A DNA stretch of 64,000 nucleotides. Origin: Acidobacteriota bacterium (GTDB taxonomy: Bacteria; Acidobacteriota; UBA890; WLXD01). Position 1 is the stretch's first letter; every line of letters begins with the position of its first letter. Both the position numbers and the translations under genes were made by a program. The notes beneath the pieces are model-generated. The model made no database searches. It was not told the origin of the DNA and worked only from the letters and a program-made list of their open reading frames with translations. The stretch lies in NCBI GenBank assembly GCA_029263295.1, contig JAJCXT010000008.1, positions 1 through 64,000 of the forward strand, in the 5' to 3' direction. Below, piece by piece: positions 34,970 through 39,829 of the stretch.

Positions 34970-36388
34970 TTGATTCACTTTCCGGCCCTTCGTTGGGGCA
35001 AGCCGTACGAGAGCCTCGAGACCGAGGAAGTCCTTCACTTCGCCACCGGCGAGCCGATCGCCAGAGTGAGCCAGGCCAACCCGGGCATCGTGGCCCGTGA
35101 CCTGCGCAAAGCGCAGAAAGCGCGCAACGCACTGCGCGCGGTGCCTGCCGTCGAACTTCTGGAGCGAGTGCGGAAGGCGGCCGATCTGTTCATGACCGCG
35201 GACTTGCCGCTCGGCGATGGGACTCAGTCGCCCGAGGACTTCGTGCGTCAGCAGTCGGCGACAACGGGCCTATCCGAGCACATGGCGCGGATGAATATGG
35301 ACAAGCTGCGCTTCGTCCTCGAACATCTCGACGAGATCCTCGACTCGCTCACCCGCGGACTCGATCTGGAGATCCTCACGCGCGGCTACGGCGAAGAGAG
35401 CGGCCTGATGCGTTCCTACCAGGCCACCACACCGGCGCTGGGCATGGTGCTGCCCTCGAACTCGCCTGGCGTCCACACCCTATGGCTGCCGGTCATCCCG
35501 ATGCAGATCGGCCTGGTGCTCAAACCCGGCCCGCAGGAGCCATGGACCCCATGGCGCATGGCGCAGGCCTTCTTCGCGGCCGGCGTGCCGTCCGAGTCCA
35601 TCTCGATCTATCCGGGCGGCGCCGATGTCGGCGCTGCCGTGCTCAAGAACACGCCACGAAGTCTGATCTTCGGCGGATTGCCGACGGTCAACGCCTATCG
35701 CGGCAATCCCGGCGTGCAGGTGCACGGCCCCGGCTTCAGCAAGATCCTCATCGGCGAGGACTGCGTCGATGATTGGGAACAGCACCTCGACCTGATGGTC
35801 GACTCCGTACTGGTGAACTCGGGCCGATCTTGCATCAACTGCTCCGGGATCTGGGCGCCACGTCACACGCGCGAGATCGCGGCCGCTCTGGCTGAGCGTC
35901 TCGCCGGGGTCGAGGCGCTACCGCCCGACAACGACGCCGCACAACTGGCTGCCTTCACGGTGAAGGGGCAGGCTGAGGCCATCAACGGGGACATCGACGA
36001 AACACTCAAGACACCGGGCGCCGAGGACATGACCGCCGCTTTCCGAAGCGCAGATCGTTGGGTGGAGCAGGAACTCTGCGACTACATGCTGCCGACGATC
36101 GTCCACTGCGACTCACCGGAGCACCCGATGGCAGCCAAGGAATACATGTTCCCGTTCGCCACGGTCGTGCAGTGTCCGCAGGACAAGATGATCGGCGCCA
36201 TCGGCGACACGCTGGTCGGCACGGGCATCACCAACGACGACGCCTTCCGCCAGCAACTTCTGGACGCGGGCAATATCGACCGCCTGAACCTGGGGCCGGT
36301 GCCGACGATCAGCCTCAACTGGCTGCAGCCACACGAAGGCAACATCGTCGACTTCCTGTACCGCGCACGAGCCTTCCAACAGGGCTAG
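34970..36388 (+). CDS. Aldehyde dehydrogenase-superfamily protein, EhpG-like
   Basis: TTG start with GGAG 8 nt upstream; GMVLPSNSPGVHTLWLPVIPMQIGLVLKPGPQEPWTPWRMAQAF; NSGRSCINCSGIW catalytic-Cys region. Confidence 0.78.
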   Translation: MIHFPALRWGKPYESLETEEVLHFATGEPIARVSQANPGIVARDLRKAQKARNALRAVPAVELLERVRKAADLFMTADLPLGDGTQSPEDFVRQQSATTGLSEHMARMNMDKLRFVLEHLDEILDSLTRGLDLEILTRGYGEESGLMRSYQATTPALGMVLPSNSPGVHTLWLPVIPMQIGLVLKPGPQEPWTPWRMAQAFFAAGVPSESISIYPGGADVGAAVLKNTPRSLIFGGLPTVNAYRGNPGVQVHGPGFSKILIGEDCVDDWEQHLDLMVDSVLVNSGRSCINCSGIWAPRHTREIAAALAERLAGVEALPPDNDAAQLAAFTVKGQAEAINGDIDETLKTPGAEDMTAAFRSADRWVEQELCDYMLPTIVHCDSPEHPMAAKEYMFPFATVVQCPQDKMIGAIGDTLVGTGITNDDAFRQQLLDAGNIDRLNLGPVPTISLNWLQPHEGNIVDFLYRARAFQQG

Positions 36389-36390
36389 GA

Positions 36391-36531
36391 GTACCGAGAG
36401 AGGAAGCGCGGGGAGAACGTTGTTCGAGCGCCCCGCGGTTGTTTGTGTCGGTAGTGGGACCTTGGTAGGGCGGCGAAGGGCGTCTCACAACATCCTCCCC
36501 GCGCTTCCAGGTACCACCGTGCCGTGGTACC
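36391..36531. repeat. Inverted-repeat module: GGAAGCGCGGGGAG (36402-36415)/CTCCCCGCGCTTCC (36495-36508), plus hairpin GGTACCAC-CGTGCC-GTGGTACC (36510-36531)
   Basis: Direct reading; additional GTTGT/ACAAC (36419-36423/36487-36491) and GTACC/GGTAC pairing. Confidence 0.85.
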
Positions 36532-36563
36532 CGCGCCCGGTCCCGGCCATGCTCAGTGGAACG

Positions 36564-36669
36564 GGGGCGCCGCACACATAGTGCATGCGAGCGCCCTTCG
36601 CTGCCTGGGCGCTCCGCAACCTCGCAACACCGAGCGGGGCGGCCGCATGCACTATGTGTGCGGCGCCCC
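36564..36669. repeat. Perfect 26-bp inverted repeat GGGGCGCCGCACACATAGTGCATGCG, 54-bp spacer with two subsidiary hairpins
   Basis: Arms 36564-36589 and 36644-36669; inner AGCGCCC/GGGCGCT and CTCG/CGAG hairpins. Confidence 0.92.
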
Positions 36670-36679
36670 TGCTCGGAAA

Positions 36680-39600
36680 CTAGTTGCTGGTGTTGGCGGC
36701 GATCGTCTGCAGGTACCCGTGCAGTTCAGCCGCCAGTTCCTCGTAGCGCGCTTTCATGTCGCCACTCGGGCGCTGGTCCGCGCTCTGGATGTTGAAGTAC
36801 AGGTACTGGAGCTGGTCGACCAGCATTGGCGGCGAGTACCGCGGGCCGGTGGTGATCATGGCGTCGTGGACAGCCTGAAGCGCCTTCGGCAGCGTTCCGC
36901 CGTTGGCCTCACTGATCGCCTCGAGATCGACCACCGCGTGCTGGGCTGCGCTGTAGGCGTCGCGTACGCGTTTGACGAACTCCGCCTGCACCGTGACATC
37001 GGCGACACCGATGCCTTCGCTTGCTACGCGGGGATCCATCGTTACCTCGAAGTCGTGCGACAGCCGTACGTCGTCGATCATCAAGGTCGCCGTGTAGGTG
37101 CCTGGCGGCACCAGCGGACCGCCTTGGCCGGAACGGCGTTCGTTCGCGGCCCAGGGGCCCGCGTAGCGCAGGTCCCAGGTGAAGCGGTGCATGCCCACGG
37201 CGGCTGGCAAGTTCGGGGTGCCGATGGCAGCCATCTGCCACTCCCGCATGCCCGGCTCCGCGTCCTCGATGACCTGGCCAAGGTCTTCGCTGCTGAAGGC
37301 CCGCACGAGCTCGCCGTCGGCCGCGCGAATCTCGAGTTGAACAGCCGCTGAAGGGACGGCCTCGAGGTAGTAGTCGATGTTGGCACCGCCGGCCGGATAC
37401 TGCGGATCGGCCGGGCCCGGGGCGCGGAAGAAGAATCCGCGGCCGCGTGTCCGTACCGCGTCGCTGACCGGGTACAGATGCGCCAGCCCGGCGATGTTGT
37501 CCGCGTCGCGAATGGGCGACACGTCGTACAGAATCCAGAAGCCCCGGCCCATGGTCGAGAGCACGAGATCGTCACCGACGACCTTGATGTCGCTCACCGG
37601 CGTCGCTGGCAAGTTCAGCTGCAACGACTGCCAGTTGGCGCCGTCATCAAACGATACGAACATGCCGAACTCGGTGCCGGCGTAGAGCAGCCCCCGGCGC
37701 GTCGGATCTTCACGCACCACACGTACCGGATGGTCACCCGGAATGCCGTTGTCGCCGGACGTGAGCAACGTCCAACTGGTGCCATAGTCAGCGGTCTTGA
37801 AGGCGTAGGGAGCGAAGTCGCCCACCTGGTAGCGCATGATGGTGGCGTAGGCCGTGCCCGCATCGTGCGGCGAAACCTCGATGTTCTGCACTCGGCCGTG
37901 CGGCCCGATGCCGGGCGGGGTGACGTCGGTCCAGTTGGCGCCGCCATCGCGCGTCACGTGGATCGGACCGTCGTTGGCTCCAGCCCAGATCACGCCGGGC
38001 TCGTGCGGCGACTCCTGCACGTCGTACAGGGTGGAGAAATGTTCCTCGCCCGTAACATCCAACGTGATCGGCGAGCCCGAGATGACCTGCGTCTCCGGAT
38101 CGAAGGCGGTGAGATCCGGCGAGATCGTCTGCCAGGTCAGGCCGCCGTCTTCGGTCATGTGCACATACTGTGAACCGTGGTACACGCGCACCGGGCTGTG
38201 CGGCGATACCGCGATCGGCGAGACCCGCTGGAAACGGTAGGCCAGGTCCTTGGGATTACGCCCGTAGATGTTCCAGTAGCCGACGTAGTTCTGCTGCTCC
38301 TGGCCGGTGCGCCGGTTGTAGAACCCGAAGCGACCCTTGCAATTGGCGTAGACGATGTCGGGGTCGCCAGGCTTGGGCACCGCGGGACCGGTCTCGCATC
38401 CGCCGTGGGACTCCCAGTACGCGGCGGGGCCGCCAGGTCGACCGCTCAGCGCCCGGCTCGGTACCGAGATCGTCGAGTTGTCCTGCTGTCCCGCGAATAG
38501 CCGATACGGATACTCGTCGGAGATGTCTACCTGGTATAGCTCGGCGGTGGGTTGGTTGCTCTGTGTCGACCAGGTCGCGCCGGCGTCGCGCGTAACGTTG
38601 GCGCCGCCATCGTTGGCCTGCACCCAGACCATCGGGTTGTCCGGGTTGATCCAGAGGTCATGGTTGTCGCCGTGCGGTACTCGCCTCGACTGCCAATTCT
38701 GGCCGCCGTCGGTGGACTCGTAGAAGCCCTCGGCCATTCCCCAGATGGTGTCCGGATCGACCGGATGAGCATGCAGGTTGGTGTAGTAGAAGGGACGATT
38801 GCGGATCGGCTGGAAGTCCGTGACCTGGCTCCAGCTGTTGCCGCGATCATCCGACCGATACACGCCACCCTGCTCTTCAGGCGCCTCGATCAACACGTAG
38901 ACACGATCAGGATCGCCGGCCGAAACCGCCAGGTCTGCCTTGCCACGGAGTCCCGTCGGCAGACCGTCCGTCAGCTGTTCCCAGCTGTCACCGCCGTTGG
39001 TGGTACGGAAGACACCGCCTTCCATGCCGCCCGAGAGAATCGTCCAGGGCTTACGTTCCGCTTCCCACATGGTGGCGTAGATACGGCGCGGGTCGTCGGG
39101 GGCGAACTCGAGATCCACAGCGCCGGTCTTGTTCGAGACATGCAGCACCAGTTCCCACGTACCGCCGCCGTCCTCGGTTCGGTAGACGCCGCGTTCCGGG
39201 TTGGGCGCGAAAGGGTTGCCTATCGCTGCCACGTACACGAGATCCGGGTTGTCTGGATGGATCAGCACCGCGCCACTATTGCCCGTGTTCTCCAGGCCGA
39301 CGTGCTCCCAGCTGGTCCCCGCGTCCGTCGACTTGTAGACACCCTTACCGATAATCACGTTGCTGCGCAGGCCGTCCGATCCGGTGGCCACATAGACGAT
39401 GTCGGGGTCGGACTCCGCCACGGCAATCGCGCCGATCGAACCTGTGGCGAAGAAGCCGTCGGAGATCGGCCTCCAGTTCTGTCCGTAGTCCGTCGTCTTC
39501 CAGAGCCCGCCGCCGGTGGCTCCCATGTAGAAGGTCCCGGGCTGGGCGCGGTGCCCTGCTACTGAGGTAACGCGACCGCCGCGAGAGGGGCCCACCATGT

Positions 39601-39742
39601 TGTACTGGAGCGCCCCGAAGCGGGCCGGCGGCACAACGCCGAGGTCCATTTCCTGGGCCAGCGGCCCGGGCCCGGTCGGCACTGCCGCGAGCGGCGCGAG
39701 AAGGGCGACGAGGGCGAGCAGGCCGAGAGCACGATTCTTCAC
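36680..39742 (-). CDS. Secreted BNR/VPS10/WD40-like glycosyl-hydrolase-type propeller protein, copy 1
   Basis: GTG start VKNRALGLLALVALLAPLAA; many 'SxDGGxxW' blades (TTNGGDSWEQL, STDGGQNWQSR, TRDGGANWTDV). Confidence 0.88.
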   Translation of the reverse strand: MKNRALGLLALVALLAPLAAVPTGPGPLAQEMDLGVVPPARFGALQYNMVGPSRGGRVTSVAGHRAQPGTFYMGATGGGLWKTTDYGQNWRPISDGFFATGSIGAIAVAESDPDIVYVATGSDGLRSNVIIGKGVYKSTDAGTSWEHVGLENTGNSGAVLIHPDNPDLVYVAAIGNPFAPNPERGVYRTEDGGGTWELVLHVSNKTGAVDLEFAPDDPRRIYATMWEAERKPWTILSGGMEGGVFRTTNGGDSWEQLTDGLPTGLRGKADLAVSAGDPDRVYVLIEAPEEQGGVYRSDDRGNSWSQVTDFQPIRNRPFYYTNLHAHPVDPDTIWGMAEGFYESTDGGQNWQSRRVPHGDNHDLWINPDNPMVWVQANDGGANVTRDAGATWSTQSNQPTAELYQVDISDEYPYRLFAGQQDNSTISVPSRALSGRPGGPAAYWESHGGCETGPAVPKPGDPDIVYANCKGRFGFYNRRTGQEQQNYVGYWNIYGRNPKDLAYRFQRVSPIAVSPHSPVRVYHGSQYVHMTEDGGLTWQTISPDLTAFDPETQVISGSPITLDVTGEEHFSTLYDVQESPHEPGVIWAGANDGPIHVTRDGGANWTDVTPPGIGPHGRVQNIEVSPHDAGTAYATIMRYQVGDFAPYAFKTADYGTSWTLLTSGDNGIPGDHPVRVVREDPTRRGLLYAGTEFGMFVSFDDGANWQSLQLNLPATPVSDIKVVGDDLVLSTMGRGFWILYDVSPIRDADNIAGLAHLYPVSDAVRTRGRGFFFRAPGPADPQYPAGGANIDYYLEAVPSAAVQLEIRAADGELVRAFSSEDLGQVIEDAEPGMREWQMAAIGTPNLPAAVGMHRFTWDLRYAGPWAANERRSGQGGPLVPPGTYTATLMIDDVRLSHDFEVTMDPRVASEGIGVADVTVQAEFVKRVRDAYSAAQHAVVDLEAISEANGGTLPKALQAVHDAMITTGPRYSPPMLVDQLQYLYFNIQSADQRPSGDMKARYEELAAELHGYLQTIAANTSN

Positions 39743-39829
39743 TTGGGCGTCTCCTTCGAAGGGTGGTTCGGCGCATTCTGCCACGGCCCGGCCATCGAGG
39801 CGGCGGCGGGGCGGCACGCGGAAGGTGCG

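Follow-up and report, generated by a model that had tools for sequence, protein, structure and literature searches.

Introduction

REP sequences are palindromes of 20-50 nt, and in E. coli their cleavage by TnpA-REP requires unpaired bases in the stem (PMC8266576). The REP/BIME systems with TnpA-REP (RAYT; PMC8266576, PMC2817692) resemble the repeat family described here in consisting of dispersed intergenic imperfect palindromes, in forming opposite-orientation pairs and in keeping conserved unpaired stem bases, and differ from it in having a GTAG-type foot, a Y1 transposase and usually hundreds of copies (versus approx. 107 nt and about 6 copies here, with a foot that is not constant and no Y1 transposase found in the host genomes). 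Strict REP membership was considered and rejected: we do not file the family as REP because no Y1 transposase was found in either genome, the size (101-112 nt versus 20-50 nt) does not fit and the foot motif is unsettled. SMR-A of the archaeon Haloquadratum (PMC3119063) is comparable in size (about 110 bp), in its prominent inverted ends, in the lack of a transposase or target duplication and in its enigmatic mobilisation; it is set apart, by its description, by copies of one type that are alike in sequence and by targets that are other mobile elements, whereas in our family conservation is confined to the core and the copies sit in gaps between ordinary genes. The ERIC and NEMIS stem-loop families (surveyed in PMC2267715) are likewise intergenic repeats (approx. 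100-160 bp) with a common stem-loop. They differ in being described by conserved sequence across the element, and their sequences were compared with ours through Rfam only. The attC sites of integrons are imperfect palindromes in which structure, with its extrahelical bases, outweighs sequence. Their length is similar to that of our copies, but they carry conserved outer boxes around a variable centre, whereas the present family shows the reverse layout, and its copies lie among ordinary chromosomal genes and do not flank gene cassettes.

Results

The window (i.e. the whole 64,000-nt stretch of DNA analysed) contains a 291-bp gap between convergent ORFs (36389-36679) that holds two imperfect palindromes, A and B (Table 1), whose arm pairs are the two strongest close inverted repeats of the entire 64 kb. 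The fold z-scores of the gap against shuffles were -8.7 (plus strand) and -10.0 (minus strand), with none of 200 shuffles as stable as the plus strand, and both strands of the cassette folded about equally well. These values place the fold beyond chance. Neither a U-tract nor a terminator-like match was found in the gap, in agreement with the initial annotation, which had noted that a U-tract is missing. All the repeats listed there were recovered in place, including the 26-bp arms of B (36564-36589 and 36644-36669, exact reverse complements), the exact arms of A, GGAAGCGCGGGGAG (36402-36415) and CTCCCCGCGCTTCC (36495-36508), and the short hairpin that adjoins A. An intrinsic terminator was ruled out, as no U-tract follows the hairpin. 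No promoter-like site was found at the cassette, and a search of Rfam 15, a check that had been proposed for it, returned no family above the gathering score (permissive thresholds gave merely generic hairpin models).

Table 1. Positions of the two hairpin modules, their cores and the neighbouring genes in the window
Feature	Position	Strand	Remarks
Left neighbour, aldehyde dehydrogenase family protein	34970..36388	+	3' end toward cassette
Module A, ~107-nt imperfect palindrome, A-type copy of family	36402..36508	-	core on minus strand; 90% identical copy at G000:C81:16348-16474
Core of A, conserved: CGCCCTTCGC ... GCGGGGCG	36429..36482	-	unpaired TT = 36476-36477 (minus strand)
Short hairpin GGTACCAC-CGTGCC-GTGGTACC, adjoins A	36510..36531		partly similar sequence after C81 copy
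Module B, ~106-nt palindrome, perfect 26-bp outer arms, B-type copy	36564..36669	+	core on plus strand
Core of B, conserved	36592..36641	+	CGCCC 36592-36596; unpaired TT 36597-36598; CGC 36599-36601; loop; GCGGGGCG 36634-36641
Right neighbour, sortilin/BNR-repeat protein	36680..39817	-	3' end toward cassette

The source genome (G000; a metagenome-assembled genome of 3.36 Mb in 122 contigs, 78% complete, whose nearest named relatives are acidobacterial) was searched by BLAST with the cassette, as had also been proposed, and further copies were found: besides the copy of module A on contig C81 (Table 1), another A copy is divided between contigs C120 and C104, at their ends, and C84 and C81:19783 give shorter matches. 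Comparison of the copies revealed a common motif (CGCCCTTCGC...GCGGGGCG), on the minus strand in A and on the plus strand in B; both modules belong to one repeat family (approx. 107 bp) and lie on opposite strands. The core pattern retrieved five copies in G000 and five in a sister species (G002, 92% complete, taken to be Acidobacteriota bacterium OFTM137, since matches in the genome that contains locus L045 agree with it in position and score), and none in the reversed control, while a covariance model added a sixth, degenerate copy in G000 (C24:609-705). The census (six copies and one deletion chimera in G000, five copies in OFTM137) derives from pattern and model searches that scored the best candidates only. 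The short hairpin beside A may, judging from the similar stretch after the C81 copy, be part of the A unit in the source genome.

At C81:19783-19827 (L021 11784-11828) the left arm of B runs straight into the right arm of A. By inspection, this chimera looks like the product of a deletion inside a B-A pair resembling that of the window, which suggests that an A-B dimer existed at a second locus. Contigs C120 and C104 (L022 and L023, first bases) end inside one element copy with a 53-nt overlap, and are therefore probably neighbours; in the sister species the two genes of this site adjoin each other.

The element is 101-112 nt long, and the aligned copies consist of an outer stem (20-28 bp), a small irregularity, CGCCC:GGGCG, an unpaired TT on one strand, CGC:GCG and a loop that carries a partly conserved TTCCAYTACC. 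The core layout (CGCCC-TT-CGC...GCG-GGGCG) is surrounded by arms of variable sequence: in ten copies the core stem and the TT are invariant while the outer arms vary, and the C24 copy departs from the invariant core (CGCCCTAAGC). Two sub-types can be distinguished by what adjoins the core, a one-base bulge in A and a mismatch in B. This anatomy modifies two proposals of the initial annotation. The complementarity between the modules, in which CGAAGGGCG (36474-36482) and CGCCCTTCG (36592-36600) are exactly complementary, is real, but what had been taken for an alternative fold is the family core, present once per strand. Similarly, the three-way junction with two inner hairpins is indeed the fold of lowest energy when B is considered singly (-85.6 kcal/mol, 6.5 kcal/mol better than the -79.1 kcal/mol of the family fold), but the other copies support one bulged stem. 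Just outside the stem, on its 5' side, several copies (e.g. window 36509-36520, minus strand) carry a GGTGGTRCC-like sequence, GGTG being present in 6 of 11, which is reminiscent of the REP foot tetranucleotide. A GT[AG]G motif occurs in the foot region of 6/11 copies, at variable distance, against a background of 10.6% (the copies are not independent and the motif was sought afterwards).

The copies were chosen by core pattern and not by arm pairing, and their arms covary strongly. In the family structure 94.9% of the cells pair, and both sides have changed in 49 cells (against a mean of 15.5 after shuffling; 0/500 shuffles reach 49), while in slid registers pairing drops to 33-52%. Furthermore, a covariance model built from the five OFTM137 copies alone (R2) recovered both window modules (B, E 4e-13; A, E 5e-7; in 123 kb, the values being rough because the calibrations were short). 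Three A copies in G000 have common arms, and therefore the arms travel with the core; several pairs of copies of one sub-type show weak arm similarity, which would be consistent with gradual divergence. The C24 copy of G000 and the B copy on C104 of G002 occupy the same site in both species (flank 81% identical over 162 bp). These orthologues have very different arms, but the G000 copy keeps 20 of 21 positions paired, and of 22 pairs 10 have changed on both sides from one orthologue to the other without losing their pairing (hand count outward from the core, ungapped); therefore, the arms change in place and stay paired. Selection on the fold could keep the arms complementary, as could hairpin-templated correction, in which one arm is copied from the other during replication, or both could act. 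We argue that at least the core is under constraint, because an invariant unpaired TT would tend to be erased by templated correction.

As far as searched, the family is restricted to one acidobacterial genus. A congener (G001, 95% complete) has no copies, among 396 genomes sampled from the phylum the exact B-type core was found in the two species only, and the surroundings of the neighbouring gene gave no matches in 50 other genomes. A looser core, searched in the class, yielded no further well-paired copy save a shorter candidate in a genome of the same order (G007:C69:4643-4703; L111 1501-1561), which forms a clean hairpin with CGCCCTTCG...GGGCG (34.9 bits with R1, 34 bits with R2) and is a possible distant relative. 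In viral contigs the strict B core was found 0 times, and the loose core in 103 stretches, 80 of which were scored with R1 (best 31 bits, arms not well paired).

Between the two host species the presence of the element is patchy. At the site orthologous to that of the cassette, the two stop codons of OFTM137 lie only about 20 bp apart, with no cassette between them (flanks 82-85% identical), the element of the C120/C104 site is likewise absent there, and several OFTM137 copies are without counterpart in G000. In some cases such absence could represent loss or decay, not insertion. No target-site duplication is certain, the empty sites being too diverged, and the sole repeat seen is a 4-bp GTGC at one site. 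The genes between paired G002 copies were considered as transposon cargo and dismissed, since they are ordinary genes with element-free relatives in G000. Upstream of a rex-type gene, the right arm (GTGCCTGCTCGCCCTGCCGGGA) of the G002 copy C171b (L096, G002:C171 170-325) is found at the same place in G000, where the element is absent (L134, G000:C9 7320-7375); the relative may have lost the element by deletion between short GTGC repeats, or the arm may have been copied from the target. The idea that arms in general are native host sequence was dismissed, being significant at C171b only.

The copies lie mostly at the 3' ends of genes: of the ten loci seven are in convergent gaps, two have tandem neighbours and one has divergent neighbours (assigned partly from start and stop codons), against a background of about 20/96 convergent pairs among adjacent ORFs in the DNA examined (a rough ORF count). 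Such a bias is expected either from tolerance where promoters are absent or from usefulness at transcript ends, and the data fit both.

Discussion

Taken together, we consider it probable that a small dispersed hairpin element, non-autonomous and with REP-, MITE- or SMR-like behaviour, forms the cassette as two back-to-back copies. This element would be of a known general kind and have an unusual layout. Among the readings offered by the initial annotation (ncRNA, MITE/REP-like element or DNA-hairpin substrate), the repeat element is the one supported, by multiple copies in two species and by the empty orthologous site, an ncRNA being less probable. The rule it gave for telling these apart (several copies with conserved arms for a MITE/REP, a single copy with covarying arms for an ncRNA) does not separate the cases, because the family is both multi-copy and covarying. 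We propose that an enzyme supplied in trans would recognise the folded, bulged core and spread copies, for which single-stranded DNA would be the most economical form (as with REP and attC), that the arms would be carried along with the core, and that inserted copies would be tolerated mainly at 3' gene ends, where the hairpin may, going by location, act two-way at transcript ends. Selection on the fold, hairpin-templated correction or both would uphold the pairing. A Y1 transposase was rejected as the mobiliser, since PF01797 had no match in any of 5 genomes, among them G000 (78% complete) and G002 (92%), while controls were positive. This result, the low copy number, the uncertain target-site duplications and the chance that some empty sites reflect loss or decay count against the reading. 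More tentatively, and with low confidence, the family may be a candidate mobile hairpin element unrelated to REP/Y1 that is read by structure through its bulged core and whose arms are rewritten in step at a high rate; hairpin-templated correction, or transposition itself, would then give each copy a private, nearly perfectly paired stem.

The rival that survives best, although we hold it to be unlikely, is a structured RNA family (a small ncRNA or a conserved 3'-end or processing hairpin) that was duplicated to several loci and acts as RNA, for instance as a bidirectional transcript-end hairpin or an RNase III site. The covarying arms around an invariant core would be expected of it, as would the frequency of convergent 3' ends (7/10 loci versus about 20/96 ORF pairs, a rough figure); however, both strands fold about equally well, neither a promoter-like or terminator-like site nor an Rfam family was found for the cassette, and a functional ncRNA would not usually be present so patchily in sister species. 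A classical MITE of a DDE insertion sequence, in which the arms would be the terminal inverted repeats of the parent transposon, accounts for the long inverted repeats, small size, dispersal and lineage-specific presence, but we regard it as very improbable: in a MITE the arms would be the conserved part, opposite to the variable arms and conserved centre seen here, the BLAST search of the source genome (only 78% complete) showed no IS end among its matches, and no clear target duplication was seen. An assembly artefact or chance palindromes, for which a metagenome-assembled genome with one copy split over two contig ends would speak, is barely credible, because independent, related palindromes with different arms lie inside unbroken contigs of two separately assembled species, the R2 model matches across species and the fold is far beyond shuffles.

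The small non-autonomous hairpin element favoured here, low in copy number (about 6 in G000), displays a fixed centre and fast but co-changing arms, which is the reverse of the usual layout, as bacterial dispersed hairpin repeats are usually known by conserved sequence. The orthologous C24 and C104 B copies allow the tempo of paired change to be measured against the flanking genes, and represent a compact natural test of selection versus templated correction in keeping long palindromes paired. Moreover, since sequence searches see only the short core, our observations suggest that families of similar layout are under-detected.
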